64,000 nt of DNA from Macrolepiota albuminosa (lineage: Eukaryota; Basidiomycota; Agaricomycetes; Agaricales; Agaricaceae). Shown one piece after another: positions 1 through 62,608 of this stretch (its first letter is position 1; each line of letters opens with the position of its first letter). The stretch lies in assembly GCA_027475525.1 (NCBI GenBank), contig JAMWFC010000120.1, forward strand, positions 186,001 through 250,000, read 5' to 3'. The notes beneath the pieces are model-generated. The model had not been told where the DNA came from, searched no databases, and was given only the letters and a program-made list of their open reading frames with translations. Both the position numbers and the translations under genes were made by a program.

Positions 1-1879
1 CGCGACAGGCTCGGGAGCAGGGGTAGCGCCGGCAACAGCCATCACAACATCTTTGGCGGGCGGGATATCCACGACGACTGGAAGCAAAGGAGTAGGGGAC
101 CTGGCAACAAAGAGGTTAGCGCAACCTAAACAGGAAAACACGAACACTACGCACCGATTACCACTGGGGCCGCTCTGATAAGGGTTAGCGGCGATAGGGG
201 GAGTAATGCAAAGCAGAAGAGCGCGTACCGCCAATAGCGCATCGGTGTCGACTACAGGCCCAGCCTCATCGTCATCCTCGCCCTCAGCATCCCTCTCGGT
301 ATCCTCGCCCTCATCAGTAGACGACTCGGTAGAAGACAAGACAACAGGAGTAGCAGGCGCTAGCTCCTGGCGCTTACCGGGACTCTTGCTAGGGGAGGCG
401 ACAATGGGCTTACGTTTCGAAGGGACGGGACGACGGGGAGAGTGGGCAAAGGGGGCCGCCACGGTGGTACCATCTTGGGTGATGGGAAGCGCTAGACTTG
501 CAGCACTAATCACAGTGGGCTGACAAGTAGCGGCCAGGTCGCGTTGCTGCAGCACAAAGGCCCGGGCGTTACGAACTAGGACGGCGCGCTTGTAATTGCG
601 CTGCATGATAGCGTCCCTACCACGTTCGCGAGTACGAATCCCATTGAAGGCACAGCCCCGTTTCAACGCATCGCAGCGGTAGCAGGGAAGAGAAGCGGTA
701 GGAAACCAGCAACCCTCGGGATCGTTTTCAGACCAGCATTTATCGCACTGGGAAAGAATTTAGCAACGTCATCAACCTTTCAGGGACGAACAAGTACTTA
801 CCGCACCAATCTTCACCCTAAAAGCGCGGCGCTCCACGGGTGCCACTGTAACCTTCTTCTTAGCGCCGAGTATTTGGACACCAGCCGGGAGGCCGGTATC
901 AATAACGGTAGTGTCGCGACGAAGGCGCAACAGATCACGAAGCTCCGCGTCGGTAAACATAGTTTGGTTGGGCGCCTAAGGAGGGCTCGATCAGGCACTA
1001 GAGACAAGCGATCTTGAAAGGAAACACTTACGACATACAAAGGGGCAACACGAGCAGGGAGATTGACCTAAGAAGCAGAGTTAGTAGAAGAACCAAAGGC
1101 AAGAAGACAAGGATGCACGGTACGTTTAGGAGGGCTAGCGAGAGCAGGGGGCACGCGGTTAATAATGACGGCAAAGTTACGGGGAGGAAGGCAAGAAATA
1201 GTATGGGTAGGTCTGGGCCAGGGCTCACTGGCGGTAACGGCAATCCGTTTGATGGCCGAATGAGGAGGCACAGTACGAGTGGGAGAAACGACAATGGGTG
1301 CAGGGCAAGTGGGAGAAGCATCGCCACGAAAAGGACTACCGAGAATGGGAGGAGGCAGAACGGAAACAGGAGCAACAGGAGCGGCCGGAGCGGAAGGAAC
1401 GGTAGGGGCCGACAAGGCACTAGGAAGACTGGCAATGGTGGGCAACGTAGCAACCGACTACTCAGGGTTAACTTGGAAGATGTGAGGAAGAAGAGGAGGG
1501 GACTCACTTTGCCAACCTCGGTACTAGCCAGCAGGGCGTCAATCTCGTCGGAGAGGGAAGGAGCCTAGTATGGGCGCTGAACCTTAGCGCCACGAACCCA
1601 AAATCAAACTTAGAAACTTACAAAAAGGTCCGCGAAAGGGCGCAACCAATCGGCACCTTCGTATTCACGGTACCGGGCCACACACCACTCGCGAACCTCG
1701 GCACCCCGCTCCCAGGAACTGTCGGAGCCGCGGACCACGAGCCAGCGCCGGTAGAGTTGCATAATGCCAGGGACGGTTTGTGGCGCATCGGCGGGACCGA
1801 CAGACTTAGCGCGATCAAATAAATAAGAGGCCTTAGCCAGGAAATTGCGAAGAGCAGAGGCATCGAAAGGAGTGGACAT
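1..1879 (-). CDS. Antisense accessory gene of LTR element 1, with six-cysteine cluster (partial, runs off left edge)
   Basis: This gene reads leftwards from ATG 1877-1879, opposite to the retroelement whose 3' LTR begins at 2027. Exon 1 ends near 1622 (conserved REWC, then WLRPFADLF). Short exons near 1505-1568 and 1068-1460 follow, the latter Pro/Ser/Ala-rich. The exon at about 800-985 starts APNQTMFTDAELRDLL. The next exon, from about 750 leftwards, opens with CDKCW and carries six cysteines spaced C-x2-C-x8-C-x8-C-x2-C-x6-C, then a basic, acidic and low-complexity tail that continues past base 1. The gene at 47420-49876 has the same exon order, intron positions and cysteine spacing, which supports a real gene. 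The spacing resembles the fungal Zn2Cys6 binuclear cluster; DNA binding is inferred. I see no nonsense codon in the main exons. Its function is unknown. Confidence 0.7.
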
Positions 1880-2017
1880 GTTGGGAAAGATGGAAAGGAA
1901 AACACGAGAAGGAGAAGTGCAGAAAACGACTTTTATAAGGTGCTGGCGGCATCATACGGACCGTAGCGCAGCCAAATTAATGACGGCGTTTGACTGAGGA
2001 TAGTCAATTTTTCAGTT

Positions 2018-2026
2018 GGGGGGAGA
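2018..2026 (+). other. Polypurine tract of LTR element 1
   Basis: A run of G followed by AGA lies directly before the LTR start TGATAGG. The preceding 25 bases match, with one change, the sequence next to the polypurine tract of the complete element (47174-47210, other strand). This fixes the orientation of element 1 as plus and identifies the following LTR as its 3' LTR. Confidence 0.75.
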
Positions 2027-3251
2027 TGATAGGCTTCTACTCGGACTGAGCGCATCAAGGGACATTATAGGCCAACCGACACTTGACGTATTCAGGACTC
2101 TAGCGACCAGCTTCTACTCGGACTGAGCGCATCAAGGGACATTATAGGCCAACCGACACTTGACGTATTCAGGACTCTAGCGACCAGTTGGGGATATAGA
2201 GCAGCTCTAGCTCTGGCAAATTACTACAGGATGTGGAAATTTATCCTAACCTCTAGCTACCAGGCCTTCAGCGCACTCCTTTCACCTAGCCCAAGGATGA
2301 AGAAGGCTCATAACGTATAACGCTAGCACGACGGCAGGAGAGGACTCTAACTAAACCCCCACCTAGCCCAAGGATGAAGAAGGCTCATAACGTATAACGC
2401 TAGCACGACGGCAGGAGAGGACTCTAACTAAACCCCGATCACTTCCAGAAGGAGCCAGCAGCAGGCGCTGCCATTTGACAAGGAACTTCAATCAGAAGTC
2501 TAAAAGGATCAATGACGGCGGCACTGGATATACTTAAATCCGACATCTGGACCTGCCAGGAACTAATACAATGAGTAGCGCTGACATTAGCGCTCACGGC
2601 GTCTGTCGAGGATTTTCCGACCATACCCCGGAACAGCCTGGCCAATCGGAGATATAGTAAAAGTGAGCAGACTTGTACAATTCTAAGTCAATATAGAGTC
2701 GCCGCTGGTTGCTGTGGGTCATAACACCGTTGGTCGCCGTCAGCCATGTGCAAAAGGTCGCCGTTGACAGGTCACCGTTAGAGGAAACCACGAGGAGAGG
2801 CGCTAGGAGGTAGCGCCGCAGATGGGCTCGTATCTTGGCAAACACGGTAGCGCATAGTATATAAAATAGCTACTTTACATGTATATAACAACGAATCGTA
2901 ACCCCTCGAACACACAGTTACACTTAGCGTTCAACTCGCGCTAGCTTCCTTCGACTTCGTCACTAAGTCGGGCGCTAGCTTCGTCTATCTCGTCTTCATC
3001 GTTTACGGTGCCACCTACGGGCACAATACGCTGCGCTACTCGTCTTTTCTCCAATATCTTTGCCTAAACTACAACGCTTACCGTCTGCCAGGTAGCCCCC
3101 GAAGTGCTATAATCTAGCGCATCGTTTTACTACCTCCACTCGAGCACACCGGGACCCTGTCAGGACTCCTCACAACTACGTACGCCAAGCACTGGAGACG
3201 GCGTTGTACTGCGTATACGTCCAGCGCACCCAACCACAGTTGGTGTCATCA
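2027..3251 (+). mobile_element. 3' LTR of Ty3/gypsy-type element 1
   Basis: The LTR begins TGATAGG and ends GTCATCA. It aligns along its whole length with the solo LTR at 39279-40321. It contains two direct duplications of period exactly 77 bp (2034-2187 and 2283-2436) that the solo LTR lacks. Removing them gives about 1,071 bp, close to the 1,043 bp of the solo copy. A TATA box lies at 2858-2867. The rest of the element lies left of the window, so the target-site duplication cannot be tested. Confidence 0.8.
2858..2867 (+). promoter_or_regulatory. TATA box of the LTR promoter
   Basis: The motif TATATAAAAT is followed by the conserved R/U5-like part of the LTR. The solo LTR keeps TATAAAAA at the matching position (39928-39935). 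It is the likely RNA polymerase II promoter of the element. Confidence 0.5.
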
Positions 3252-4778
3252 ACGCACGCAGGCTTGGGCTTTAATGCACGTACTGTAGTCAAAGTGATGA
3301 GTTCGGGTGCCGTTAACAAGTCCAACGCAGCCTTTCATCATAAATACCCGCCCACGCATCAGTAGTGGGAAAGGTTCTCGTTGTTCAGGCAGCAGATGGC
3401 AAACGGGAGAGGGTAGGTTTGTTTTCCATGATAGATATATTTTGAGTGTCCTGTAAATCTTGAGGAGTGCGTGATAATAGCATTCGAATCGTTGTGCTTC
3501 AAACTCGTGTATATAGAGGGTATTGTGATATCTTTTCTGTCATGGTCAAGGGTCAGGAGGTCGTCATTTTCGGGTCGTCATTTCCAAGAGCGTGTACAGA
3601 GGTTGGTACAAGAATTGAGCCTTCTGAGAGAGAATATAATGTAGTAAGATGAGTTGTCACCAGTGCCAGTCTGGATGCCGAAGGTATGGCTGGGATGATG
3701 CGAAGCAGTGAATTCTACAGGCTCTAGCACAGATTTAGCACCAAGAGGATGGTCCTGGCCATACCCAAGGGTTATGCGCAGTTCTACAGCTCTAGCACAG
3801 ATTTAACACCCAGAGGATGGTTTTGGCCATACCTACGCTTTTTACCGTCATAATTTGCCAATGTTAAATAGAAACTAACTTGTGTAAATGGTTTTCTTCT
3901 CTACTGCATTCTGGAACAGAGATGGAGAGTAGAATATTGAGGGCAAGAAATAGAAACGGTGACTCCGATCCCTCAACATCTAGTAGGATAATTAAGAATA
4001 TACATATGTTAGTTATTAAATAAATGGAAGGGACAACCTCGTATCTCTGTCAACATCGGATCAGGGCTTTTCATCTTTCGTCTGAATCGGGTCTGATGAG
4101 ACCCTGTTGAGTTTCTACTCGTAATTCAACAGATAAAACGGTACCGTGAGTAGATAAGCTGTGTCGCCTGCTTCACCGCGGTGCAGGCGGAATACGAATG
4201 TGTCTGTGGGAGGAAGGAGAAGTGAGTAAGTTTTTATTTTTCTTAGATGGGTGAGACATAGGATATTCAATCACCAGCTTCAAAGCTTACATTCAGCTGT
4301 AATCCAACGACGTCAATGCTATCAAACATGGAAAGAATCAATAAGAACGAACTGTACCATAGTACTGGACACGTAGAGCCCTTCATCTATATGCTGGCTT
4401 TACCCACATTTGGGATTGGCTGCATATGACCCACCAGTGGGACTATATGAATTTCTTAGAACATATAATTGTGTGGGTGGAGGAGACATACCTAGCACTT
4501 TGAATGCCAACAACGCATGCTTGAGACTCTATGGCTGACAAACAAAACTGCTCATGGTTACACGGAGATTGCTGCAGAGCTGTCATGTCACGTTATCTAA
4601 AATCTTCCACTCCATTCTAGAATAATCCGCTGGTTCCAGAAACATGTTCCATCAGAAAGTGCCAATCGTGGGCAGTTGTAGCTCCAGCAGCGGATGACAA
4701 ATGAATGTGTATGTTTATTGTTGTTGTATGATTTGTGTTTGATTGTTCAAATCCGTTCTTGTTCTTCAATTGTCACCA
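3252..4778. other. Gene-free stretch between the LTR and the JmjC gene
   Basis: AT-rich sequence with no convincing coding frame, RNA gene or transposon end. The only structure seen is a diverged 68-bp direct duplication at 3711-3833. A motif 'gctccagcagcgg' near 4680 resembles the inverted unit of the minisatellites at 9.7 and 18.3 kb. Confidence 0.5.
3711..3833. repeat. Diverged 68-bp tandem duplication
   Basis: Two copies of a segment centred on 'ctctagcacagattta', starting at 3722 and 3790, differ at several positions. The period of 68 and the sequence divergence set it apart from the exact 77-bp duplications elsewhere, so this is probably a genuine old duplication. Confidence 0.6.
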
Positions 4779-9820: not shown

Positions 9821-9838
9821 CCACTTCCATTGACGTGA

Positions 9839-10770
9839 TCAATCTCTCCTGATATATACAGCCAACGTGGCTGTCCTGGAATTGCACTTTGACATATCAA
9901 TCAAGCTCATAGATTCACTTTCCTTTATCATTTTATATCCAGTTGTCAATCCATCATGATGCCAAGATTCGTTAGATGAAGATACGTAGCGGCTTGAAAA
10001 ATGAGAGTTGCCAAAATATATAACTCCTTTTAGTGTGTACTTACTCACCCTCGAAGAATCAACGGTCGTGATTTCAAGCCTCTTATCCACGTCGACTGAT
10101 ACACTTGATATATCTACTTACTCATCCTCAAAGAATCAACGGTCGTGATTTCAAGCCTCTTATCCACGTCGACTGATACACTTGATATATCGAAATAGAT
10201 AATTGGAGGGGCCATCAGAAACTGAGAAACCTTGATTAGTCATCTCGCACATGAATCACACCTTGTGCTTGTATAGCACCAAAAGTCATCAACATGCTCA
10301 CGAATGGATGGTCTTCCTGGCATCAGTATGATCATTACTGATTTCGATTTCACTCTCCGACGGGCCATGGCATGGTGAGCTGGACAGACCATAAACGAAT
10401 CAAGCACATCTGACACGTTGACAGATAGTTCGTTAATCAAAGAGTGTACAGACGTGTATTCACCAAACGGGAACTCTCTGTGATTCCTCTGAGACAGCTT
10501 GGTCCTTCATTAATCAAAGAGTGTACAGACGTGTATTCACCAAACGGGAACTCTCTGTGATTCCTCTGAGACAGCTTGGTCCAAAGCCATCCCTGGTCTC
10601 CTCAAGGGCCTCATGATCTCCCGGGGCAATACTATGGAAATCCTTCACTAGATGTTTGTTTAGACGCGAGCTCAATGCACTAAGCTTTCGAGACCATTCT
10701 AGAGGATCTTCTCACCATAAATTGTATATAATAGACAATACAGAATTGTATGCGCAACTGTTCAGCTTCC
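9839..10770 (-). other. USP-like peptidase domain at the end of the Helitron 1 protein
   Basis: The Cys box SCAYNSVLSIIYNLW (about 10712-10757) resembles the 'NTCYLNSVLQ' box of ubiquitin-specific proteases. A cysteine/histidine pair region (CPAHH, later CYTSTRCDSC) could be a zinc ribbon. The His box YTLKGVIYFGNSHF (about 10000-10045) followed by SWHHDG resembles 'YxLxGVxxHxGxxxxGHY'. Two in-frame TGA codons and two 77-bp duplications (10433-10586, and 10041-10194 with two mismatches) interrupt it, but the frame is otherwise open to the stop at 9839. Animal Helentrons can carry an OTU cysteine protease; a USP-like fold here is inferred from motifs only. Confidence 0.55.
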
Positions 10771-13700
10771 ATGAACAGGCAAAGGGGGAACAAGTACCTT
10801 GCAAAATAGACAGACTATCTGCGTGACTCAACCGTCGGCGTTTGCTTGGACCATGCTCAATGTCTTCCTGCATCTTCCGTTTTCCTGTGCTGCATGGATC
10901 CTTGTATACCTTGGCCCCTCTGGCAGGGATGAAAGTGTTTTTGGGCAATGGCCTTTCTTGTAGTGGCCTCTCTCTTGATATTATATGCCAATTGATATCT
11001 ATGTACCCTGAATCATCAAATTGATTGTTTTTACCCCATCTCAGGGACGGATGCAAATGAGGAGGAAAGTATGTGTCACTTTTGCATTGTCTAAACGATG
11101 CTATCAAATTGGACCGTCTTGGAGCGTCATGGAAACCCTTTGGCAGCTTCCCTACATACCTCAGCCTCGTTATCTCATCCAGCAACTCTAAATCCCGGAA
11201 CTCCTGACGTAGTGCGCCAGTTGCTTTTCCTTGAATGACGGTTCTGTCAAATCCACGTATTATAATAGTGCCGGCTGCAGTAGCGCTTCGGGACAGTGCT
11301 GTATAGTAAGCCTGATGGGATTGACATTTGAACAAGTCAACAGGATTAAAAGGCCTAGTCTTCCCTTGGCTAGCATAATCGGTTATAGCATAGTTGACGA
11401 GTATTTTGATTTGTGATCGCAAAATTGTAATCTTTTGGTTGTTAGGTAGACTGCATTCAGTTGAAACAGTGCTTCTAGTTATTGGTACTACGTCTTCAGG
11501 AAGACCTTCTATTTGTACATGATGCGGTGGATTCTTCAGTTTTACAAACAGCGTGTCTATCATACGTTGACCAACAGAACCCGTACATGACTTCCATCCA
11601 TATACGTAACCTTCTTGACCATTTGTGATACAGAGCTCTGTGGCAATGTTAGTCTTGATGATAATAGGTAAGCCGACGCATAGCGACAGTTTGCCTGCAA
11701 CTTGACCAGATGTGGATGAAGGAGGCTGCTCCCATAAAATATTCTGAATAGAGGAGTGTAGAGGAACTCTGTTTCTACCTGATGCTCCTTGACCTTTACC
11801 TTTGCATGTGCTCTCGTCACCCTTGTCAAGTACAGTATCTTCGCTAAAGAAATCTGTCAGCTCGAGTCCACTCTCCAGGGCAAATCTGCTACTTCCAACC
11901 ACATTGACAGCATCTTTATCTATGTTGTGTGCTGTTATGATAGACACATTATGGAAGTCATCATTGAGAAGCGAGGAGTCTGAAAGATTGGAGACTTGCC
12001 GAGACTCCAGGAACTGGATATTGTCTTTGGTGCATGCTCGATACCTCATGTTAGCAAGGGCCGTTCTAAAGGATTTGTTGTCTGGACTTTGCATTGTCTG
12101 TCTCATATTCTGTCTCAATATGACTACTGTAGTAACCTGGTGCCAAACTGCTTTACCCAATGCAGCCTTTTGTTTGTTCAGATCTATAGATCGCATACCC
12201 ACACTGCGACTGTACAGCGCTGCATTCTCACGGCCAGTTACTGGCGGCAGCTGAGCAAAATCACCAGCAAACACCATGTTCATACCACCAAAAGGGAGGT
12301 GCGACAGACCTGTAATCTGAGCAAGGTGCGCTGATATCTTGTACATATCCCTGCAAGACAACATGGATACTTCATCAAAAAATACATATTGCACCCCGAA
12401 AGGTGCGCTGATATCTTGTACATATCCCTGCAAGACAACATGGATACTTCATCAAAAAATACATATTGCACCCCGATAAGGCGTGACTTTACTTGAGCCA
12501 GTTGTGCCGGAGAGTCACGTACCATATCATTAATTCCAAACAGATAATGGTAAGTCGATCCACCTAACAATGATGCTGCGGTGCCGGAGAGTCACGTACC
12601 ATATCATTAATTCCAAACAGATAATGGTAAGTCGATCCACCTAACAATGATGCTGCGGTGCTGGTAGGAGCAACCACTGCAAACCTACATATGAGATTCT
12701 CCATGGGCTGCAAAGTATTGGGACAGCACCTTAAGCACCTGTGTTTTCCCAGTGCCCCCCATACCCCCCATATACATTCTCAACTGTTTGGGGTTAGAAG
12801 TGGCAGCATGGTTAGCCACTATTCTAAATGCTCTGGTTTGTTCCTCATTGAGATTGAAACTGGTAGTAATTTCGGATATAGTGGGTTCCCATTTGATATT
12901 CAAATGTTTTTTCTCTAGGAAACTACGATCACATACTTCCACAATGCCTCGGATATAGTGGGTTCCCATTTGATATTCAAATGTTTTTTCTCTAGGAAAC
13001 TACGATCACATACTTCCACAATGCCCGGCTTGTTTTGTTCGTCCGATCTTCCAACGCGCTGTTCACGAACAGACGACATGTCTTTTTGCCTATCTTTTAG
13101 TATGGACGCACGAGTTTCACTGACCTTATGTCTCCAGTAAGTACTGGGCATGTCTGACACAGAAGGTGAATGCTTCGTTGTAACAGGGGAGGTTTGGCCC
13201 ATTACAGGCTTATCCCAATTCAGGCTCGTCATGGTGGAAGTCATAATAGCCATATCTCTCCGACGTTTTAGTTCGGTTTTGCCAAGCTCATTACTACAGT
13301 CAAGGTCTATCCCATAGTCCTCAGGTTGTCTGTTATCTTTGTCGTCCATATGATCCTTTTGTTCAATATCTCTGACATTGGAAACTGAATTGTCCATTCC
13401 CGGGAATGCCACACCGCCTCGCTTCAACTGTGCATAGAAATCGTCACAGGCATCCAAACACTCATACTTAATATTCATATTAGCCATAAGACACAGTTGC
13501 CTTTTAGTAAAATGATGGTTGTCGAATGCTGTGCTCTATAAATCATACTTGTTTTTTAAATCAGCACCTGAACGCCAAGGCTTGAATAAGGTAAGCATTG
13601 TGACGCAGTATTTGTCTCTATCCCCTTTATCATGCCTTGGAAGAGTAGGACCAATGAAATTGGGCACGCACTTCTGCCCTGGCGGATATACAAGAGTAGC

Positions 13701-40321: not shown

Positions 40322-40410
40322 ACAGTATCAAGTTAGATGCTAAAATATAAAGTTAGTAATAAGTATATAATTAACAATCACACTTACATTTGTAAACCAT
40401 TAAGAACTTC

Positions 40411-46235: not shown

Positions 46236-47173
46236 TGATGACGCCCAAAGTTTGGTCAGTAACAAATATAACTATAGTGTTACCGTACCAAAAGCTTGCG
46301 TTGGGTGCGCTATAAGTGATGTGAGGAGTCCTGGGCAGGTCCCAGAGAACGCGCCTGTGAAGATGAGAAAAAGTCGGTAAGGGGGTCGGCAAGTGTAAAG
46401 CGCTAAGGTAAAGCGCCTATGAAGAAGCGGTAAGCAAACACGGCAATGTCAATGGCAAGAACACAGTAAGCTTAGCGAAGTCTAAGCGTCGTAACTGCCT
46501 GCCGTAGATGCAAGGCATGAATAAGTCGAAGGCTAGCGATGAAGTCTGCAACTGCCGACGAGCTTGACGTTGCCGACCGTAAATGAGATCTTGAGCATAA
46601 GGGAGACTAAAGAAAGGGGAGCAGGAAACTCTGGTCTATTGTTCGATGTCCGTATGTACAAGTTGGTAAGTACTTTATATACTACAAGGAGTTCACCGTC
46701 GCCAGTGACCAACCATTGCCAAAGTGCGGTAAACTGGAAAATTTCATAGGGGTAGCTCCAACGGTTTCAGATCCCTACCGTCCATTCAAGACCCTTAGCG
46801 GCGCCAGGTGGCAGATCGTGATGCTAAACCATCAATCCATCACCCTTCTGTCTGTCCAAAAGGCTTAGCAATGTCAGGCGCCAAATCGAGGCGCTAAGCG
46901 ATGTCAGATGCCAAGGTCAAACGCCAAGCTGTCCGTCAGTTTTTGATAGATCATCAGGCTTCTCCCTAAGCGCTGTCGTCAGTGACTGATGCCATCTGTC
47001 AGTTGTCATTCTGTCTGCCGTCGGCGCTATCACTGATTGGATCTGCTTCTTGCCGTGCGCAGCCGTCAAATATTGCCAAAATTAGTTAGTTAGCACACGC
47101 TAAGGTACCCTGAGCCTGTGCCGTGTTGCCGTAGCCTGCTGTTGATGCGCTGATCCTGTATGGGGTCCTATCA
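46236..47173 (-). mobile_element. 3' LTR of element 2
   Basis: 938 bp, bounded on the plus strand by TGATGACG and CCTATCA. A TATA motif (minus strand) lies at 46681-46673. Compared with the other LTR there are about 30 differences, all transitions and nearly all at CpG positions. Confidence 0.95.
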
Positions 47174-47182: not shown

Positions 47183-47419
47183 AACTGAAAAATTGACTGT
47201 CCTCAGTCACCAAATAAGGCTACCGTTACCGCTTTTGTGACAAGTGGTCTGTGCGTTTTTGAGATTTTGTTTATAGTCCTGGCGCATGAGTGTGGACTTC
47301 GTTTCTCCTCCCATCTTTTATCTGGCGCTCTATTAAAATTAAATGTCTTTCTGCATTCCAACATGAGTGTGGACTTCGTTTCTCCTCCCATCTTTTATCT
47401 GGCGCTCTATTAAAATTAA

Positions 47420-49876
47420 ATGTCTTTCTGCATTCCAACTCCGCCCCCCGTACCGTCTCGCGAGGCTCAAGATGCTGCCTCCGCCTATATCGAAAAGGCA
47501 AATAATTTCCTCAAGCGAATCGATAGCGTTGGCGCAGACGCGCCTATAAATTTGGTGACTGCCGTTATGAAGTTATACAAGCGGTGGCTGGAGGTGCGCG
47601 TTCTTGGTGTGGGCTGGGATCGCGAAATAGAGGTTTGAGAGTGGTGCCGATCGCGGTACCTGGATCATTGTGGCATGGAGTGGTTAGCGCCTTTTGCTCG
47701 TTTTGTAAGTACCTCTAGCTCTTGCCGTGTCGCTAGCTGATCGAGTTGCCAGGCACCTCCTCCCGTCCCAACGATTGAGGACAAGTTGGAGGATATTCTG
47801 TCCGGTGCCTTGCCGATGACGGTAAGTGCGCCTGCAGCAGAGTGAGTATTCCTAACCCATTCCTTTGACCTTAGCTTTGGTCTGACTTGTCGCCTCATAG
47901 TAAACAGGAGGTGTTGGCACCGTTAGCGCACATGCAGGTGGAGGAGGAGATCGCGGCAAGGCAGGAGGAGGTTTCTCAAGACGCCTGCGAGATTACCAGG
48001 GCGCTAGAGGAGCGAGAGAGGGTGGCAGCATTGGCAGCAGAGATGGAGGAAGTTGCTGCGGGGAAGGCGCCTGCCGCCAAGAGGCAGTCGGTAGCAGAGG
48101 GATCCAGCCAGGGTGGTCGTGCCGGCAGCACTTTGAGCCCAGTGTTGCTGGCTAGCAAGTCAGGCTCGCCGAGGAAGCCGGCAGGTGCTTCCAAACGTAA
48201 GGTAAGTGCTAATTTTGCTTGCCGTTGCCGACAGTCGCTAACGACGTCTGTAGAGTCGCAAGGCGGCTCCTCAATACGCGGTAAGTGGTCTTTGGAAAAT
48301 GTTGCCGACAGTCGCTAACGACGTCTGTAGAGTCGCAAGGCGGCTCCTCAATACGCGGTAAGTGGTCTTTGGAAAATCTAGTCTCCTTATTTACCGTGAT
48401 CCTTCTAGGCGCCAACGCAGTCCAGTTTTGATGACAAGGAGCTCAAAGGACTGCTGTTGCCGCGTCACGAGGAGGCCGTTCTTGACGAGGGGCAAGAGGC
48501 CAGGGTTGTCATGGAGGAGATGAAGGGAAAGAAGACCATTTCCCTGGCGACCCGGCAAGCTTTTAAGGAGGTGTGGGGAGCGGTAAGTAACTCTTCTGTC
48601 TTTTTAAGTCTTTTGCTAACTCTTAGCGCTAGTGTGACAAGTGCTGGGCCGACAACGACCCAGAAGGCTGCTGGTTCCTGACTGGAGCCCAGCCATGCTA
48701 CCGTTGTGGCGCCCTGAAGTGCGCTTGTACCATCAACAGGGCCAAGAGTCGTGAGCGTGGCGGCGTGCCAGATGCTCTCGTCGAGAAGACGTTTTCCCAT
48801 GCAGTATTGGTAAGGAGGGCTAGGGAGTTTGTGGAGGGGCAGAAGAAGAAGGTGGCTGCAGGTGGCATGGCAGCAATTGGACGGGCCTCCTTGGCGTTGC
48901 CGACGTGCCAAGGAGATGGGTCAGAATCTGTCGGCAATCGAGGCGCCGGCGAGCGCCAAGGGACTTCGGTCCCAGAAAGACGTCAAGCCCCTTCCCCAAG
49001 CAAGGGGAAGGGCAAAGCAAAGCACCCTCGTGTGGTCTCATCGTCGCCTTCCCCCTCGCCAGCTCCAAAGGACACCGAAATGGAGGACCTGGAGAAGGCG
49101 TTGGCGGCTAGTCACCTCCCACCTCGTGACACAGAGGCTGGCCCCAGCGGTCTCTTGTCGCCCATTCACTTGGCAGAAAGCAGGAGGAGGGAGAGCAGGA
49201 GGCGCCTCAAGAGGAGCGGGAAGACGCTCCCGTAGATGTCGAGATGGGAGAGGAGGAGAAGGCAGAGAGGGTGGCAACGGGAAGGGATGAGGATGCCGAG
49301 GGTGAAGAAGAGACCTTGGCTACTCAACAGGAAGGCGACGAGGTGGTGGCAGGCGAAGGGGAGGGAGCGGTTGGAGTTGCCAGGGAGGAGCCTGAGTGGC
49401 GCTGGCTGCCTCCCTACAGTAGCGTTGCCCCTTGGGAGGTATTAGACCCTGAGGACGTTGCCGGACTGGAGCCTAGGCGACCTGTCGTCGCCAGGATAAA
49501 CCCTGTCTGGACTCCCCAGCCACAGCCAACAGTCACTGGCGACGCTTTCAACTGGCTGGGACAAGACCTCATGTACCCAGTGGTGGCGCTTAACCCACGG
49601 AAGATGCTGGAGAGGTTTTTGAGGAGGGCGGCAATGATGGAGGCAGCAATGGGGCGAGAGCAGAAGCGAGTCCGAGGGCAGCTAATGGCACTAAGGTTGT
49701 GCTACTCCAACCTTGGTTGTAGCCTTAGCGTTCTTTGCGACTACCAGGCAGATTGCCAAGCTGCCATGGATTGGCAGACCGCCAACAACATCTTGCCTGA
49801 CGACCTTCTTCCTCTTCGCGATTCCTCCCTGCCAGTCTCTGACAGCTCCTTACCGATGGACAACGATAGTGATTGA
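47420..49876 (+). CDS. Antisense accessory gene of LTR element 2, with six-cysteine cluster (damaged)
   Basis: Start MSFCIPTPPPVPSREAQ at 47420. Exon 1 carries MKLYKRWLEVR, a TGA at 47636-47638 where the sister gene at 1-1879 has Arg (REWC), and WLAPFARF before gtaagt. Later exons: VPTIEDKLEDILSGALPMT (about 47760-47820); a coiled-coil and Ala/Glu-rich exon (47880-48200); SSFDDKELKGLLLPRHEE (48410-48582); then an exon opening CDKCW (48634) with C-x2-C-x8-C-x8-C-x2-C-x6-C. An acidic tail with a frame change near 49180 and a helical C-terminus (AAMMEAAMGREQKRV) end at 49876. Duplications at 47285-47438 and 48224-48377 are assembly-like. It converges with pol. The cysteine pattern is Zn2Cys6-like; a role in regulating the element is only a guess. 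Confidence 0.7.
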
Positions 49877-50300: not shown

Positions 50301-51690
50301 CTAATCATTTTCTTCTTCTTCAACCAGAGTTGGCAAATCATCATCGTCCAATAATTCTGTTTCTTCAAGTTCCCTAAGCTTGGCGGTGTCGATATCTAGC
50401 GCTTCAAGCGGCAAGTCAATGTGTTCTCTGGCGAGGTATGGCAATAGGCGAAAAGCGGCAACAGGTCGATGTAGCACTGAACCATCTAATTCACAGAGCA
50501 CGTAAGCGCCTCCACGGTTACGAGAGATAACTACCAAAGGTCCTAGATAGCGCGGACACATTTTCTTGTTGTATGAGGTTTCAATTTTGGAGTTGCGCAT
50601 AAGCACTAGCGTGCCCCTTGGGAAGTTGTAATTCTTGATAGTGGCGCTATGCTTGGTCTCAAATCGTAGGGCTGCTTGGCGACAGGCGCTAAAGACTACC
50701 TCGTGGAGTCGTTCTAAATCTTCCTTCCTTCGCTGGAGATCAATAGCTCATCTGGCGATCAGATCGGTAGTCGCTAAGATACTATTGGGTGCTGGCTGAA
50801 GGTAGGTCGCTTCTATAATGTCGGCAGGGAGTAAAGGATGGGTGCCAGTAGCTGCGTAATAGGGAGAACAACCCATGTGCTTATGAATGGTAACTCTTTC
50901 CGACCAAAATACTGAATAGGTCGCTACGCTCCAATGAAACTCGTCGCCATCGACTGCCTTGAAGAGCGCTTGCCGAACGTCAAAGTTTGGTCTCTCTACC
51001 AGGCCATTGGCACGTTTGTTGTAGCCAGATACTCGAATATGATGGATATTGTATTTCCTGGCGAGATATGTTAGCGCTTTGATGATGGGCGCACCGTTAT
51101 CCGTGACGATTTCTCTTAGCGCTCCCCAATGGCAAATGACGTCCTCAAATAACCACTTGGCGACCGCATCCGTATTTTCTCTCTGAAGCATTCGAAATTC
51201 AGGCCAGTGGATTAGCGAGCAACGACCTTGAATGATGTACTTGTAGCGACCGGATTTGGGCATATGCATGGTATCGACGTAGATTTTGCTGAAGAGGGGA
51301 GCTGGCATTGCAACGGTTGGCAGGATAAGCACTTGGCGTGTTTGTTGAATTTGGCAGAGGTGGCAAGTCCTAATGTACCAGGCGATATCGGCACTAGCGT
51401 GTGGCCACCAGAATTGTTCTAACAAAGAGGCTCAGGTAGCATACAGACCTCTATGTCCTAGCTCATCATGCATGGCGTGCAGGACTTGTAAGCGACTTTC
51501 TGGCTTGATGACCAGCTTATGAGCTCCATCTCGATTTCGTCGCCAAAGGCGGTTGTTGGTAAAGAAGAAGTGGGTGGCATATCGGATAAAGGTCGCGTAT
51601 TGCTCGTCGGTAAGGCCTGCGGGTCGCTTAAGGTCTTGTATCCATTGTTCAACTATTAACAAGCAACTGTCTTCCGCCTTTGCCTTGGTG
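50301..51690 (-). pseudogene. Integrase of element 2
   Basis: Order on the minus strand: zinc-binding HHCC region (HDELGHRG near 51460, CHLCQ near 51365), the catalytic core with YVDTMHM (first Asp), IVTDNGAP (second Asp) and GLVERPN (Glu), then a GPF/Y-like module (PRYLGPLVVISRNRGGAYVL) and an acidic end (LVEEEEND, stop 50301). No chromodomain follows. The frame is split at about 51430 and 50750 by single stops or shifts. The DDE triad itself is present. Confidence 0.8.
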
Positions 51691-51692
51691 GA

Positions 51693-54050
51693 TCAGGGAA
51701 TGGCATCATAGGTCAGGTTTCTGCTGTCTTCTCTTAGCGGATGGGGTTCCTGTATGACTTTGACTGGAGGCAAGTCTTGTCCAAGGATGCTTGCTGTGTA
51801 GAATGTGAGGGGTGCGGTAAAGATCTCGGGGTGGTAAGAGACAATGGGATGAAAAAGGATACTGGCAGGCTGTTGCCGTCGTAGTAGGGGAATTGGCTGT
51901 TGGATGAGGTGCATAAAACCATGTAATCTGTCGATCCAGTCCTCGAAATCGCTATCCGCCTGTGGATCCACTGCCGGGTCGCCAGGCTGCCGCGGTCGCC
52001 TAGAGAGTCCATCTGGTCCGTGGAAAGAGCTCTTGACGTGTACCAACTCAAAGTGAAACATTAGGATGGCGACTACCCACCGGTTCATGCTAGCGGATAG
52101 CTGGATATCGGGATTCTGCAGCATGCCTTTGATGTACCTAGCGTTGACTTCAACGATAAGGTTCCAGACGCCAATCAAATACATCTTTAGCGACCGAAAG
52201 GCTTTGAAGAGTCCATAGAGCTCTAGCTTAGGCTGACTGTAGCGAGATTCCCTGTCGTTTAGCGTAATAGACCCAAAGCAGTTGTAGCGTCATTGTTTCC
52301 GATTGTTACTAAGGCACTGGCACAAGAAGTAGCCAACGGCAATGTACGAGGTATCCACCGCCAAGATAACAGGGTCGGCAGAGCTATAGTCAATAGGAAC
52401 TAGGGGTTTGGCGTCTTGTAAGGCTTTTACTAAGTCTCGTTGTGCAGTGACCTGGTCTGGCCCAAATTCAAAGGGCTCATTAGCACGGGTGAGTCGGTTA
52501 AGGGCGTGCATGCGATGGGCAAAGTTCTTGACGAATATCCTGAGAACGCCAATGGTACCTAGAAAGGCGCGAACTTCAGATAAGTCGCGGCAAGGGCCCC
52601 ATCGCTCCAAGAGTGCTAAGCGAGACTCGTCGGGAACACGTCCATCGGGAGTGCAGATGTGACCAAGTATTTTGAACCTTGGCACACAAAGAAGGAGCTT
52701 ATGGCCGCTAAAGGTACCACCGCTATACTTCATACGTTGGAGAACTCGGTTGAGCAGCTGGAAAAACTCCCATAGCGCTAAGCGAATGTTGGAGTTGTCG
52801 GGATGGGTCGCCGGTAAGCCGTTTACGAGTCGCCAGTCTTTGGGGCCTTTGACGCCAACGTCATCAATGAAGCTGAGGACATTATGCGGTATCTCGGATT
52901 GGAGAATGAAAGTGATGTCATCATGAAAGATAGGGACTGAGTTTGTCCAGCCCATCGGTAGAGTGACTAGGCGCAAAGCGCCAAACGGAGTTTGAAAAGT
53001 AGTAAGGTCTCGGGAAGAAGGGTGTATGAGGCATTCGTCGTAGCCAATGTAGAGGTCAAGGGTGGCACCACAAATGCGCCCGGCAAAGGACTCGGCAACA
53101 TGGTCAGGGAAAGGCGGTATGCCAGAGTGTCGTATTGTAACCCTATTCAGCGGTTCGAGACTATGAACTATGCATAGATTGCCGTTCTTTTTGAGGACAC
53201 AGAACCATTGGGAGCGGTAAAAACTGTTTGAGGGCTTGTAGATGCCAGCCTTTATCTTGGTCCTAATGATTTGGCAGACCTCGGCTTCGATCCCAGGCGG
53301 TAGCGGTTGGTTGTGCTCAGTCCACGGCACGTGAGAAATGGTCGGGATCACAACAGGCAGGAAGAAGTCTGTATGTAGACTGCCGCGTTCTGAGTCCTCC
53401 CAGGCGAAGGCTTTATCTTGCTTAGCGACGAGGTCGGTAAGGACATTCAACTCATCTTTGGTTAAAAATCCTGTGTCATGCTCCTTCGCAAATTGTTGTT
53501 GGCGCTCTGCGGTAAAACGTCCTGTGGGCTGAAAGGGTGGCAGATTTGGTGATAAGGTTGGCATGTCGGCAAGAGGGTTGCCAATGATCTGGCGCTTGAT
53601 TCTAAACGTCTCGGGAGAGTGCGTAGCGACGGGTTTTGTTTTAAGCGCAACTGGCTTATATTTCTTTTTGACTTGAACCCCTTTCCTTTTGGGAGTGTTA
53701 GCTTGGTTATATACAGAGGTGGAAAGGGGAACTGTAGCCTGAGGAGCGGCAAGTCTGAGAACGGCAGGAGACAATGCTCTGGGAAGGGTAGCGAGATATG
53801 TATTGGTAGACGCAATGTTTTGAAAGGATTCAGAAGTGGTAAGGTACAAGTACGCTAGAGCGGAGTCGGTAATGTGTTGATTTTTCTGGTAAAGCTCAGC
53901 GTCGGTAGTGGATAAAGTAGTTAAAACGTCTTCATCAAGAAAAGCAGTAGACACAACATTTACAAGACCAGTAGAATGGTCATATTCCAGCGTTAGCACC
54001 ACATCTCCATGATCGTCGCCAATCATCTCCTCGATGGTCTGTGAAAACAC
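51693..54050 (-). pseudogene. Reverse transcriptase and RNase H of element 2
   Basis: Reverse transcriptase: AGIYKPSNSFYRSQWFCVLK, IVHSLEPLN (Ser where Asp is usual), ATLDLYIGYDE, TTFQTPFGALRL and SFIDD for the YxDD box. The thumb/connection reads LSEVRAFLGTIGVLRIFVKN. RNase H: ILAVDTSY (first Asp), YSQPKLELYGL (Glu, in the gap between open frames) and VEVNARYIKGM, with Asn where the second catalytic Asp is expected. A stop at 52290 splits RNase H. The altered RNase H residue and stop argue that the element cannot replicate on its own. Confidence 0.85.
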
Positions 54051-54789
54051 CGGTGGGGAGGCTCGTTGGCATGTTGGTCGGTAAATTCTGGGGGCTTAGC
54101 GTGGGCGCCTTTTTGTTGTCCCCTAGGGAACGTTGGCACCGTTCGTCGGATTCCAGAATTAGGGTCGCTAATTGTTAGGGTCGTTTCGTCGTCGGTTACA
54201 GTCTTGACGACTGATCGCGCCAAGACGTCGAAGGGTCTGCCAAGTAGTAGGTCGTATGCCAGGGAGCGCAAAATGTGTATCTGTAAGTAAAATGTGATGT
54301 CGCCAAGGGTGCAAGGTACATTCTTGGCGAGGCCTAAAGATCTGTCTACCATGCCGTTAGCACTCTGCATGTTTAATATCACCGTAGGGTCATAAATGAG
54401 GCCTAGATCGTTAGCGACTTTAGCTGCCATAGAAATGATTTGAGACCTGCTATCCACAATTGCCTCTACCTCGTGCTTGTTGTCGACAGTTAGCGCTACT
54501 GAGCGGATAGCGTGCAATTCTTGAGCGACGGTAAGGATTGCCGGGTCCTCTCCATGGTCCACTGACCTAAGATAGGTCTCCACTGGGTCCACAGAGGTGG
54601 CGTTAGCGATGGTGTCAGCAGGAGAGTCTTCAGTGTCACTGACCTAAGATAGGTCTCCACTGGGTCCACAGAGGTGGCGTTAGCGATGGTGTCAGCAGGA
54701 GAGTCTTCAGTGTCCAGAGAGTCGATGGTGACGGAAAAACCGGGAAGCGCGTCGTCGAGGTCCTTGACCTCGGCAATGGTTGTCGCCAA
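54023..54789 (-). pseudogene. Retropepsin-like protease of element 2
   Basis: AIVDSRSQIISMA (54430-54460) is the aspartic-protease active site with Arg at 54446-54448 where the DSG motif has Gly. LLLGRPFD follows in the flap/C-terminal half. A period-77 duplication (54560-54713) precedes it and shifts the frame artificially. The Gly-to-Arg change would probably abolish dimeric protease activity. Confidence 0.75.
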
Positions 54790-54795
54790 GGGTCG

Positions 54796-56777: not shown

Positions 56778-56780
56778 ATT

Positions 56781-57718
56781 TGATGACGCCCAAAGTTTGG
56801 TCAGTAACAAATATAACTATAGTGTTACCATACCAAAAGCTTGCGTTGGGCGCGCTATAAGTGATGTGAGGAGTCCTGGGCAGGTCCCAGAGAACGTGCC
56901 TGTGAAGATGAGGAAAAGTTGGTAAGGAGGTTGGCAAGTGTAAAGCGCTAAGGTAAAGCACCTATGAAGAAGCGGTAAGCAAATATGGCAATGTCAACGG
57001 CAAGAACACAGTAAGCTTAGCAAAGTCTAAGCGTCGTAACTGCCTGCCATAGATGCAAGGCACAAATAAGTCGAAGGCTAGCGATGAAGTCTGCAACTGC
57101 CGACGAGCTTGATGTTGCCGACCGTAAATGAGATCTTGAGCGTAAGGGAGACTAAAGAAAGGGGAGCAGGAAACTCTGGTCTATTGTTCGATGTCCGTAT
57201 GTACAAGTTGGTAAGTACTTTATATACTACAAGGAGTTCACCGTCGCCAGTGACCAACCATTGCCAAAGTGCGGTAAACTGGAAAATTTCATAGGGGTAG
57301 CTCCAACGGTTTCAGATCCCTACCGTCCATTCAAGACCCTTAGCGGCGCCAGGTGGCAGATCGTGATGCTAAACCATCAATCCATCACCCTTCTGTCTGT
57401 CCAAAAGGCTTAGCGATGTCAGGCGCCAAATCAAGGTGCTAAGCGATGTCAGACGCCAAGGTCAAACGCCAAGCTGTCCGTCAGTTTTTGATAGATCATC
57501 AGGCTTCTCCCTAAGCGCTGTCGTCAGTGACTGATGCCATCTGTCAGTTGTCATTCTGTCTGCCGTCGGCGCTATCACTGATTGGATCTGCTTCTTGCTG
57601 TGCGTGGCTGTCAAATATTGCCAAAATTAGTTAGTTAGCGCGCGCTAAGGTACCCTGAGCCTGTGCCGTGTTGCTGTAGCCTGCCGTTGATGCGCTGATC
57701 CTGTATGGGGTCCTATCA
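56781..57718 (-). mobile_element. 5' LTR of element 2
   Basis: 938 bp, the same length as its partner. TATA motif on the minus strand at 57226-57218, placed to start transcription into gag. Ends are TGATAGG and GTCATCA in element orientation, the same termini as the element 1 LTR although the interiors differ. Confidence 0.95.
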
Positions 57719-59245: not shown

Positions 59246-59859
59246 CAAGTATGTATAGAAAACTCAGTGCTCATTCCCGGCCTCAACCTCACTTCGTTTG
59301 GTTAAGGCCTCCACATTCCACAACTCAGTCCCCTTTCCACAACTCTCAAAGTAAGCTAAATTGAATTTTTCTTGAATTTTTCGGATTTTATTCAGCATTT
59401 ATAAATCTTTAAAAAAACTAAAAATCAGTATATTAGTAGCCTTTGAATTTTTCCTGATTTTCTGGTGATTTTCCTGGAATTATTTGAGCATTTTCCACTA
59501 ACATCTCCTGAAAAACAGAGCAATGAATTTTTCTTGAATCTTTCAGATTTCTTTAAGCATTGAAGAACCTCAAAAAATTCACAATCAGTGTATCAGTAGC
59601 CTCTGAATTTTTCCTGATTTTTTGGTTATTTTTCTTCAAATTTCTAAGCATTTTATACATACATCTACCAAAAAACAAACGAAAAAGGCAATTCTTTGTC
59701 AGCCTTAGTCAGAACTGACTAAGCACATCATTCCCACGAAACAGTTGTCCCATATTATATAGATACATACTTGGAGCCCTAACCAAATGAAGTGAGGTTG
59801 GAATAGAAGCTAAGCTACTTATACATACTTAGAGCTCTAACTGAACAAAGAGTAGAGGC
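59246..59859. repeat. AT-rich Helitron flank up to the third LTR
   Basis: Repeats the 'gaatttttctgattttt...gagcattttccactaacatc' block found at 37620-38700. It ends with inverted 'ccctaacc/ggttaggg'-type units at 59760-59850. The LTR of element 3 interrupts it at 59860. Confidence 0.6.
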
Positions 59860-60727
59860 TGTTGTCAGGTTCCGCTGACGACGGGGGCCTTCGGGGGCAA
59901 GCGGGTCTTTACTAGGCGGACTCGAAGTCTACGGAGAGTCTCCGGGTGAGTTCCGGAGTTTTGGGTAGGGCACGGGGTGGCTACGGAGCGCCGGAGTTTG
60001 TAGAAGCAGGTAGAGCAGGATCCCAGGCTAAGTCCGGAGTACGAGGTGGGAGTGGGCGGAGCCTTGTTAGGGCAGAGGGGTGATCGGAGGAAGAGACTGA
60101 GACCGGGAGACTGAGATGGGAACCGGGAGACTAAGTTAGAATTGAAGTGAGACTTTTAGAAGGCTGGGAGACTTGAGAGAGTAAGACAGATAGATTGAGA
60201 CAAGTACGAAATAGACAAGAGAGTATAGAGACGAGTTTATAGCAATATCAAGACTACTGTAATATACTACGAGCTGCGGGTTAAGTACCAGGTGCCGGGT
60301 GAGTTCCGGGCCACCTGGGCAAGGTCCATACCCTCCCTCCATGTGGTGCATCCCATGTGGTGTATTGTGCGGGTATCAGTCCTCTACTGTCGCGTGGTCC
60401 CGGGGGGCGTGGATGGGTTGCGGTGTATTGTCCGGGTTCGGGAGTGGCGCCGGGAGGGCGGCGTCAAGTGGGGGCAGCCCCCGGCATGATCGATCGAGGT
60501 TTGGGACGGCGTCCGGGGCACGTGGTGTGTTGGCGGGGCTTCGGGCCTTATCCGGAGGTTGAGCATCGGGTTGGGCCGGGTCGGTCTTAGTTGGGGTGGC
60601 ATCGGATCTAGTCGGTCTCGTTCCGAAGTGCTCCAGGGACGCGCTGGGGGGGTTGGGTCCAAAGGAGGGGTTCCAGGTAGGACTTACTGGGGGGTTCGGG
60701 GTGGCGTAGGTGTGGCTCGTGACATCA
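59860..60727 (-). mobile_element. 3' LTR of LTR element 3
   Basis: 868 bp from TGTTGTCAGG to CGTGACATCA on the plus strand; the termini are imperfect inverted repeats (TGTTGTCA/TGATGTCA). A TATA motif on the minus strand lies at 60241-60236. A polypurine tract abuts it at 60728. GC-rich, unlike the AT-rich flank to its left, so the border is sharp. The partner LTR lies beyond the window. Confidence 0.7.
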
Positions 60728-60738
60728 CCCCCTCCTTT
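60728..60738 (-). other. Polypurine tract of element 3
   Basis: AAAGGAGGGGG on the minus strand immediately precedes the LTR start TGATGTCA, which sets the orientation as minus, the same as the integrase at 63 kb. Confidence 0.65.
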
Positions 60739-60876
60739 AGCGCCGAGTCCCTACGAGGCGTCGGCAGCTGTGCCCTTCTTCGTGGGAGCCGAATTTGAAG
60801 TTTCGAAGGTTGATGCCATCAGTCGGGGGGCTAGAAAAGGGCAGCGTTAGTCCTGGGAGGCTCCCCCTATCTCTTC

Positions 60877-62608
60877 ATGTCACGTGAACAGACGCCTCTC
60901 CGCTCTCCAACCCCTCCCCTGGCCGGGGACAACTCCCTGGCCACCTGGCAAGAATACGAGGCGCGTTGGAGCGCGTACGAGGAACGCCGGGACCGCCGGC
61001 ACATTGAGGAACTCGCCCGTGGGTACTCCGGCGTGGGTCTTGCGGTACTGCTGACGTGATTCCCATTGCAGGGAGGATTTTGCAGGGCTCGCACCCGGCA
61101 CTGGTCGCCAGGCCTTCATCACTCCAGTCCCCCCCCGCCTCCGCTTCTCGGGTCCACGTCGACCGGCAGCCTACCCTCGGTGTGGGTCAAGTGTGGGAGG
61201 TCCCCCAAGCACAGGTGACGGAGGAGCAGTTTGTGGCAGCCCAGGGGCGGCATCGGGGGCCACTGGAGCGATCCTGGTGCGAGGCGGCGGGTCCGGTGCG
61301 TGGGTCTGTTGCCCCGGAAGCGTCCTGCTAACTTCCATAGTGCGTGATGTGTGCGCGCCGGGGGGTGTCCTGCGAGTTTGAGGAGCCCACGGCGGGGTCC
61401 CACCGGGATACTTCCATGTGCGTGGCATGCCGTTTGCGACATGAGCGGTGTTCGGTGGTGCTGGCGTGGCGGGCGCGCTGCATGGCCTGGGAGCAGGGGT
61501 GGAGCGAGGAGTGGGTGATGGAGAGATTGAGGGAGAGTCCCGGGACCAGGGGCCAAGGGGAGTGGAGTCGCACGTCATCGCCCCCGCGGGCGTCGTGTGG
61601 TTACGCCACGGGTGGTGCCGGAGTCGTCGTCTTCGGAGTCGTCCTCAGCCCGGTGGGTGGATAAAGGTAAGCAACGGGCTCACAATTCGTCGGACGAGGA
61701 GGATGCGCCTCCCACCCAGCGTCGTCGAGGGTCTCCCGGGAGTGGGGCTGCAGGTCCTTCAAGCCTCCCGGGGCAGGTGTTTTTCCCCAGCTCTGGTCGT
61801 CCAGTGCCCGGGCCATCTTGCGTACCCGGGACGGAAGAGGATCTTGCCGCCTCCCGTTGTCAGCTCGCGGAGGCCGGCGCTCAGGAACGCCGCCTGTCGT
61901 CGCGCCTCCAGGACGTCATCGAGGAGGGCCAGCGGGAGTGGCAAGCGAGGGAGGGGTTGCAGGAGGAGCTGGGCGTGGTCGCGCGGGCCCGGGAGGCCCT
62001 GGAGGCGGAGGTGGCGGGCTTGAGGGCCCGCTTGGGACAAGAGGACGGGGTGGGGCCAGGACGGGTGGCGTCGGAGGTGCGGGAGGTAGAGCTGAGAGAG
62101 TTGCTGGGCAGGGTGGAGGGAGCCCAGGCGAGTCTGGTGCGTCGCCGGGGCTGGCTGGTGGGAAGCGTGGCAGCCACCCGTGGCGAGGCTATGCGTGAGT
62201 GCCCTTGCGCTCGTTCCGGGGTCCCGGCTGACCTTTATCCCAGGTTGGGCCTGAGAACACCGCCTCCTTCTGGACGGAGGGGCCTCGGCGTATGCCTTCA
62301 TCCAGCAGGGCCTCGCAACAACGCCGGGTCTCTCGTCGGCGGAGGTGACTTGGGGGCTGGAGCAGTGGGGACGATTACTGGCGGCCCACCGGAGGCGCAA
62401 TGTAATCGTCCCAGGGTCGTGGGTGGAGATGGCGGCGGATGCGGAGGAGCCCCTCCCCTCATACGAGGAGCGGGTGGCCGCGGTTCTGTCGTTGATGGAG
62501 GCTGCAATGGGGGCTCCTCCGGCGGCCACGGAGTCGGGGGTGTCCAGGGAGGCGTCCGGTAGTGGGGCGGGAGCGTCGGGGAGTACGGGGGGGCCTTCGG
62601 GGTCGTAG
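60877..62608 (+). CDS. Antisense accessory gene of LTR element 3, Zn2Cys6-like
   Basis: Start MSREQTPLRSPTPP at 60877; WQEYEARWSAYEERRDRRHI follows. Exon 2 (about 61075-61290) includes GSHPALVARPSSLQ; then an intron gtgcgt...ccatag. The next exon, at about 61341, reads CVMCARRGVSCEFEEPT...CVACRLRHERC, exactly C-x2-C-x6-C-x15-C-x2-C-x6-C, the spacing of the fungal Zn2Cys6 DNA-binding cluster with a long loop. Then come ARWVDKGKQRAHNSSDEEDA, a long coiled coil (LAEAGAQERRLSSRLQDVIE, AREALEAEVAGLRARLGQ, about 61860-62150), an intron gtgagt...tcccag, and a helical C-terminus (EEPLPSYEERVAAVLSLMEA) to the stop 62606-62608. A TGA right after the last acceptor looks like a CGA mutation. Same place and orientation as the other two antisense genes, but diverged in sequence. 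Confidence 0.65.

Follow-up and report, generated by a model that had tools for sequence, protein, structure and literature searches.

Spliced antisense genes with a six-cysteine cluster, under purifying selection, in long terminal repeat retrotransposons of Macrolepiota albuminosa

A 64,000-nucleotide stretch of the Macrolepiota albuminosa genome (C101:186001-250000; hereafter the window, numbered from its first base) holds all or part of three long terminal repeat (LTR) retrotransposons, elements 1, 2 and 3, each with an additional gene (genes 1, 2 and 3, respectively) between pol and the 3′ LTR with its polypurine tract, on the strand opposite to pol. The region examined consisted of the window and 10 kb on each side, 84 kb in total; the genome searched comprised 100,137,612 bases in 129 contigs, and all recurrence counts given below refer to this one genome. 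An initial annotation of the window, made from its letters alone, had proposed antisense genes at this place in the three elements, and both position and strand were confirmed. The antisense gene is present in 3/3 of the recognised elements with paired LTRs and pol, a tally that leaves aside repeat-rich stretches such as that at 36-41 kb. The genes and their cysteine clusters are as follows.

1 to 1879, minus strand, running past the window edge to -708: gene 1, nine exons, ATG at 1879
1879-1622, 1564-1508, 1457-1119, 1067-1032, 975-802, 747-229, 174-155, 100 to -325 and -376 to -708, minus strand: exons of gene 1
652 to 747, minus strand: gene 1 cluster, C-x2-C-x8-C-x8-C-x2-C-x6-C
47420 to 49876, plus strand: gene 2, six exons (47420-47704, 47753-47821, 47875-48201, 48331-48357, 48409-48582, 48633-49876)
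48633 to 48728, plus strand: gene 2 cluster, C-x2-C-x8-C-x8-C-x2-C-x6-C
60877 to 62608, plus strand: gene 3, four exons (60877-61018, 61072-61295, 61341-62194, 62244-62608)
61341 to 61451, plus strand: gene 3 cluster, C-x2-C-x6-C-x15-C-x2-C-x6-C

The introns and the cysteine spacings that had been claimed for the three genes were recovered: eight, five and three introns were modelled in genes 1, 2 and 3, in a gene-like splicing pattern, and all three spacings are as predicted. The proposed extents of genes 2 and 3 also stand, but gene 1 is cut by the window edge and is longer than had been stated. The gene 1 model was built on the copy at locus L019, in which removal of eight introns of 50-57 bp leaves one open frame of 694 codons, encoding 694 amino acids (aa); the gene 3 exons were derived from splice signals and open frames. 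Retroelements normally lose introns on being copied through RNA. The introns of the antisense genes, however, run on the strand of the gene, and because the sense RNA that is copied would keep them, the established cycle leads one to expect that they outlast retrotransposition.

Genes 1 and 2 are homologous; their proteins are 32% identical over 721 aligned columns and keep an N-terminal and a C-terminal region in addition to the cluster. The cluster lies mid-protein in both (at residue 289 of 694 in L019) and, judging from the gene 1 and gene 2 sequences, precedes a conserved segment, stretches of basic residues and acidic tails. The cysteines themselves are nearly invariant, being found at 125/126 places in gene 1, 48/48 in gene 2 and 23/24 in gene 3. 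Conservation of the two terminal regions would also fit a protein that acts not in gene control but elsewhere in the element cycle, for example in nuclear import, in the particle or in the choice of insertion site, and accessory roles of this sort have been discussed for antisense open reading frames (ORFs) (PMC7264820). Separate antisense expression is unexpected for a particle component, though, and nothing direct speaks either way; we consider this explanation quite unlikely. Comparison of gene 3 with genes 1 and 2, using narrow profiles, detected no homology (hhalign probability 0.24 and 0.34%). All three genes have a phase-0 intron immediately 5′ of the codon for the first cysteine, and position and intron placement suggest a common origin of gene 3 with genes 1 and 2.

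The elements that carry these genes have the following parts.

2027 to 3251, plus strand: 3′ LTR of element 1, with ends TGATAGG...GTCATCA; gag-pol lies to the left of the window, in L009
46236 to 57718, minus strand: element 2, with LTRs at 46236-47173 (3′) and 56781-57718 (5′), 96.9% identical, and the target-site repeat CCAT
50748 to 54592, minus strand: pol frames of element 2, split over several ORFs, with an integrase zinc-binding domain and weak matches to reverse transcriptase (RT) and RNase H
59863 to 70922, minus strand: element 3, with its 3′ LTR at 59863-60724 and the end of its 5′ LTR at 70922, in L010; LTRs 97.2% identical, target-site repeat GCTGT
63018 to 63998, minus strand: integrase core and SH3_Tf2-1 domain of element 3
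62898 to 63119, minus strand: chromodomain of element 3, in two pieces separated by a stop codon in frame (E 0.00078 and 0.032 against Pfam Chromo, neither reaching the curated cut-off)

Element 2 is complete, with ends TGAT...ATCA and a polypurine tract; element 1 ends at 3251 and the start of its 5′ LTR is beyond the stretch reached, and the termini of element 3 are TGTC...GACA. In element 1, the aspartyl protease and the integrase zinc-binding domains score over the Pfam cut-offs and RNase H is weak (E 0.00092). The RT frames of elements 1 (L009:3125-4660) and 2 (52293-54095) match RVT_1 weakly (E 0.036 and 0.00035, respectively), which suggests that the two belong to an unusually divergent Ty3-like lineage; the RT of element 3 is typical (E 2.6e-30). 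Elements 1 and 2 are 69% identical in the RT frame and 86% in the integrase, while element 3 is 23-32% identical to either. Gene 3 had been assigned to a different, chromodomain-bearing lineage: the distance is borne out and the chromodomain is there, but it is split by a stop and falls below the Pfam cut-off. Elsewhere in the window, 39474-40323 resembles a portion of the element 1 3′ LTR (2377-3253; 77.7% identity), has no pol adjoining, and is perhaps a solo LTR.

The association of antisense gene and element recurs throughout the genome. A 33-base pattern for CWxxNDPEGCW, in the cluster of genes 1 and 2, was found at 625 places with at most one mismatch (part of these being 77-bp duplicates, see below), and a 35-base pattern for the integrase of the element 1/2 type at 703 places; the reversed-pattern controls gave 0 in both cases. 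Pairing was scored on 100 listed integrase places and on the 67 of 100 listed cluster places that lie on the same contigs, all of them exact matches. An antisense cluster motif is located downstream of at least 56 of the 100 integrase motifs, at distances, among the matches listed, of 2.5-2.8 kb (32), 4.0-4.9 kb (23) and 6.5 kb (1); 54 of the 67 cluster motifs listed are paired with an integrase, and five neighbours within 7 kb are arranged otherwise. For the element 3 family, in which 122 integrase places of 3743 candidates and 150 cluster places of 732 were scored, there are at least 32 integrase-cluster pairs, in every one of which the cluster lies antisense at a distance of 1.6-2.6 kb; a single neighbour is arranged otherwise. 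The best integrase matches of this family are paired in 17 of 18 cases, and at least 32 of all 122 scored are. These counts are lower bounds, and an unpaired motif among the places listed does not mean that the gene is absent. In addition, 19 of 20 gene 1 loci of 10 kb have an integrase downstream on the opposite strand, the exception, where none was found, being L037; as these loci were picked by the gene, they show that the gene sits in elements, not that every element has the gene.

Two further groups of cluster exons were seen. Gene-1-type exons in an open frame of 202 aa have identical best scores at many places (e.g., C35:104048, C62:643078, C114:3582409) and look like a recently amplified subfamily. 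Gene-3-type exons in frames of at least 600 aa, 59-60% identical to that of the window (e.g., C44:238843, C107:807738, C107:993823) and in some cases beside an integrase, may represent further subfamilies.

The reading of single copies is affected by tandem duplications, of which 33 occur in the 84 kb, all with a period of 77 (30 exact over at least 77 bases, three over 70-73; e.g., at 2033, 2283, 7276, 12323, 41801, 48224, 58227 and 70705); no other tandem period from 20 to 399 was found in this region. The fetched loci contain 104 period-77 duplications, some of them counted twice in overlapping loci, and the next commonest periods number three each. None falls within 24.1-41.8 kb, the interval that contains the phosphofructokinase and ribosomal L2 genes. 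The duplications are probably assembly artefacts that arose at contig joins where a 77-base overlap of the graph was retained. They disrupt reading frames and alter the structure of copies, so that an individual copy may be a chimera and some of the broken frames may not be real. A tandem exon duplication in gene 2 is one of the 33 and was ruled out as a biological feature.

With insertions of 76 or 77 bp set aside, gene 1 is open in 14 of 21 copies; the others have stops (L020, L031, L035) or frame-shifting indels (L032, L033, L037, L038), and in four of the 14 open copies (L025, L026, L028, L029) a single splice site is non-canonical. The window copy of gene 1 has a 77-bp duplication in the exon from 100 to -325, to the left of the window, and is otherwise open. 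Gene 2 is free of stops and of frame-shifting exon indels only in L004 (1/8 copies), in which a 77-bp duplication lies where an exon meets an intron; in the window copy, which carries the period-77 duplication at 48224, the gene is disrupted by an in-frame TGA at 47636 and by the loss of 16 bp from the last exon. The window copy of gene 3 is likewise disrupted: it lacks 29 bp that L016-L018 have, and it has a TGA at 62252.

The antisense genes are under purifying selection at the protein level. For gene 1, the ratio of nonsynonymous to synonymous substitution rates (dN/dS) is 0.24 (NG86; 21 copies, the 175 of 210 pairs with dS > 0.1), divergence at the three codon positions is 0.086, 0.045 and 0.165, and introns diverge by 0.110, less than synonymous sites (0.23). 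The ratio is 0.16 for gene 2 (28 pairs, eight copies; 0.10-0.20 at dS 0.45-0.75) and 0.29 for gene 3 (four copies, 429 codons in four segments, without exon 2), where the cluster (0.16) and the C-terminus (0.20) give lower values than exon 1 (0.33) and the middle (0.38); a separate estimate for exons 1-2 alone is 0.47, and the other frames of gene 3 give 0.92 and 1.08. The integrase, taken as a control from the gene 1 loci, has a dN/dS of 0.14 (52 pairs, 12 copies). The initial annotation had argued from conserved position to selection; position alone does not imply it, and it is the substitution tests that demonstrate selection. Both recurrence and a dN/dS below 1, the checks proposed at that stage, were thus found inside this genome. 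A functional role of the antisense RNA itself, for example in forming double-stranded RNA with the sense RNA, has been discussed for plant antisense ORFs (PMC7264820); here, however, selection acts on codons, as seen from dN/dS values of 0.16-0.29, the invariant cysteines and the codon-position rates given above, and it seems very unlikely that the RNA, and not the protein, is the functional product.

Coding on the sense strand was rejected as the cause of this conservation, since the overlapping sense ORFs contain stops and are under weaker constraint. A sense ORF of 184 aa that overlaps gene 1 (1014-1568, plus strand) has stops in 8/21 copies and a dN/dS of 0.51, and one of 256 aa that overlaps gene 3 (61759-62529, minus strand) has stops in 3/4 copies and a dN/dS of 0.67; the sense frames are thus not wholly unconstrained. 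Over the spliced gene 1 columns, dN/dS is 0.91 and 1.55 in the two other forward frames and 0.66, 0.31 and 1.62 in the reverse frames; the value of 0.31 is probably due to overlap of the third positions of that frame with the third positions of the gene itself.

Of the 770 minor-allele changes in gene 1, 362 are at CpG sites, as would be expected of methylated repeats. Decay at CpG sites as the source of the low dN/dS was addressed with context-matched shuffles, which gave ratios for gene 1 of 0.45 for shared changes, 0.18 for shared non-CpG changes, 0.65 for singletons and 0.53 for non-CpG singletons, none of 2000 shuffles being as low in any class; the shared non-CpG changes comprise 45 nonsynonymous and 139 synonymous, against an expectation of 116 and 66. 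Context-corrected ratios are 0.25 for non-CpG (0/1000 shuffles) and 0.74 for CpG changes (8/1000) in gene 2, and 0.36 (0/1000) and 0.78 (73/1000, not significant) in gene 3. CpG decay is therefore ruled out for non-CpG changes, and the signal at CpG sites is weak. The ratios for shared changes and singletons in gene 1 indicate that the lineages which went on to multiply were constrained and that individual copies decay. Such decay, together with the many broken copies like those of the window, would suit a passenger, that is, a captured host gene or a nested second transposon carried without use since an ancestor, and any such gene probably began as a capture from the host. Yet the shared changes of genes 1 and 2 show purifying selection (0.18-0.19), and the gene has the same place in two distant lineages; the passenger explanation, already disfavoured, is highly improbable. 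The concentration of gene 1 changes at CpG sites also fits methylated, silenced copies, and the protein could then be an anti-silencing factor that recognises DNA of its own family and frees its element from host methylation or heterochromatin, like VANC of the Arabidopsis VANDAL transposons, an example of a sequence-specific anti-silencing protein encoded by a transposon. Nothing here separates such a factor from ordinary transcriptional regulation, and we regard it as unlikely.

Elements 1 and 2 share a stretch that extends from the polypurine tract to a palindrome, TGACTG-TCCT-CAGTCA, in the leader of the antisense gene.

1991 to 2006, minus strand: leader palindrome of element 1, TGACTA-TCCT-CAGTCA, with one mismatch to the form of its relatives
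47194 to 47209, plus strand: leader palindrome of element 2, TGACTG-TCCT-CAGTCA, between the polypurine tract and gene 2

An exact copy of the palindrome is present in 19/21 gene 1 leaders and in 6/7 gene 2 leaders that reach the site, and the two leaders listed are its only sites in the window at two mismatches or fewer. The sequence TATAAAA is found 56-58 bp 5′ of the gene 1 ATG in 21/21 copies; no such box was found at gene 2.

We propose, with a probability of about 0.5, that the antisense gene is a long-standing third gene of Ty3-type elements, spliced and coding for a cysteine-cluster DNA-binding regulator of its own family. It would have its own promoter just inside the 3′ LTR, from which a separate spliced antisense mRNA would be made, and the product would be a protein with a six-cysteine, probably zinc-binding, cluster. 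Most likely this protein would be nuclear and would act in trans on its own element family, possibly via the TGACTG-N4-CAGTCA palindrome that adjoins the polypurine tract. A nuclear regulator is proposed because the cluster, conserved segment, basic stretches and acidic tails together have such a make-up, and self-control of the element is suggested by the palindrome adjoining the gene start. A more far-reaching version, in which the genes form an old class of antisense regulators, the spliced cluster protein and its palindromic target make a self-control or anti-silencing switch, and the cluster exon is one module common to two distant Ty3 lineages by descent or exchange, is offered tentatively and is rather unlikely to hold.

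Several observations weigh against the regulator proposal. No Pfam family matches genes 1 and 2 at E ≤ 10, so that they have no recognised DNA-binding domain, and the cluster exon of gene 3, the part of this gene that was compared with Pfam, matches Zn_clus (PF00172) below the cut-off (E 0.013; 16 bits against 21). Structure models were too poor to use (pLDDT, the predicted local distance difference test score, 55 and 44). The palindrome was not found beside element 3, and it may instead function in plus-strand priming. The three closest pairs of gene 2 have a dN/dS of 0.52-0.62, and 7/21 gene 1 and 7/8 gene 2 copies have stops or frame-shifting indels. Lastly, antisense transcription is predicted from sequence alone. 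Neither a wide protein search with gene 1 residues 225-360 (235 candidates, 0 at E ≤ 0.001) nor a sequence search of the PDB (nothing useful) gave a relative.

Should the protein be a DNA-binding regulator, control of a fungal LTR element by its own antisense gene would become directly testable, and some of the zinc-cluster genes predicted as orphans in genomes of this kind would prove to belong to elements. A gene with up to eight introns, kept by selection in a family of about 600 motif copies because it runs backwards, would also show that a spliced gene of host style can persist for long periods in LTR elements.

Among ten other ORFs of the window compared with Pfam, six gave a match (to models of Helitron, PIF1, DUF6570, phosphofructokinase or ribosomal L2) and the remaining four gave none. 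Helitron remnants (Helitron_like_N, PIF1, DUF6570) lie at 10715-17093 (minus strand) and 42551-43282 (plus strand).

The initial annotation had called the cysteine clusters Zn2Cys6-like. The spacing of fungal Zn2Cys6 clusters is C-x2-C-x6-C-x(5-12)-C-x2-C-x(6-8)-C, and the six cysteines hold two zinc ions in a domain that binds DNA. The clusters described here resemble them (PF00172) in having six cysteines in two C-x2-C...C halves, and gene 3 comes close in spacing, but the first half is C-x2-C-x8-C in genes 1 and 2, and gene 3, with x6 there, has a loop of 15; genes 1 and 2 also carry the cluster mid-protein. The designation thus applies to gene 3 only, with its match below the cut-off, and not to genes 1 and 2, in which the spacing differs and Pfam gives no match. 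There is also a likeness in arrangement to HBZ of human T-cell leukaemia virus type 1 (HTLV-1), an antisense nuclear regulator encoded at the 3′ end of a retroelement and expressed from a 3′ LTR promoter. HBZ belongs to the bZIP proteins; here there is a cysteine cluster instead, and the Pfam comparison gave no bZIP match for genes 1 and 2. The role proposed for the antisense genes would resemble that of HBZ or of the antisense proteins of the plant elements Grande and Retand.

The description of these genes as an undescribed system was too strong, as antisense additional ORFs at this place are known in plants and in Botrytis (PMC7264820 and PMC11963269). In plant elements, antisense additional ORFs between pol and the 3′ LTR (aORF-3R) include gene23 of Grande and those of RIRE2 and PvRetro13; they have the same place and orientation as the genes described here, are present in most copies of a family and are constrained like other element genes, and the Grande protein is known to be nuclear (PMC7264820). 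The genes of the window likewise lie between pol and the 3′ LTR on the strand opposite to gag-pol, and gene 1 is constrained much as another protein of its element is (0.24 vs 0.14 for the integrase of the same loci). They differ by the six-cysteine cluster and by three to eight introns, neither of which is mentioned for the plant ORFs in the passages of PMC7264820 consulted. In Retand, 97% of clusters carry antisense TRP28 proteins, which are also predicted to bind DNA; genes 1 and 2, however, have no match to TRP28 (PF04195), and introns are not mentioned in the main text of the Retand paper (PMC11963269). Among fungi, brtn is an antisense additional gene of Boty-like LTR elements in Botrytis and Sclerotinia (PMC7264820 and PMC8365987); it is alike in being antisense and in a fungal LTR element and differs in that those elements are of ascomycetes, the comparison being one of descriptions and not of sequences. 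We found no report, in the open-licence literature, of antisense cysteine-cluster genes in LTR elements of fungi. As far as open texts tell, then, what sets the antisense genes apart from these known systems is the cysteine cluster, the presence of up to eight introns, the occurrence in two distant lineages, the scale, and the palindrome beside the antisense start.

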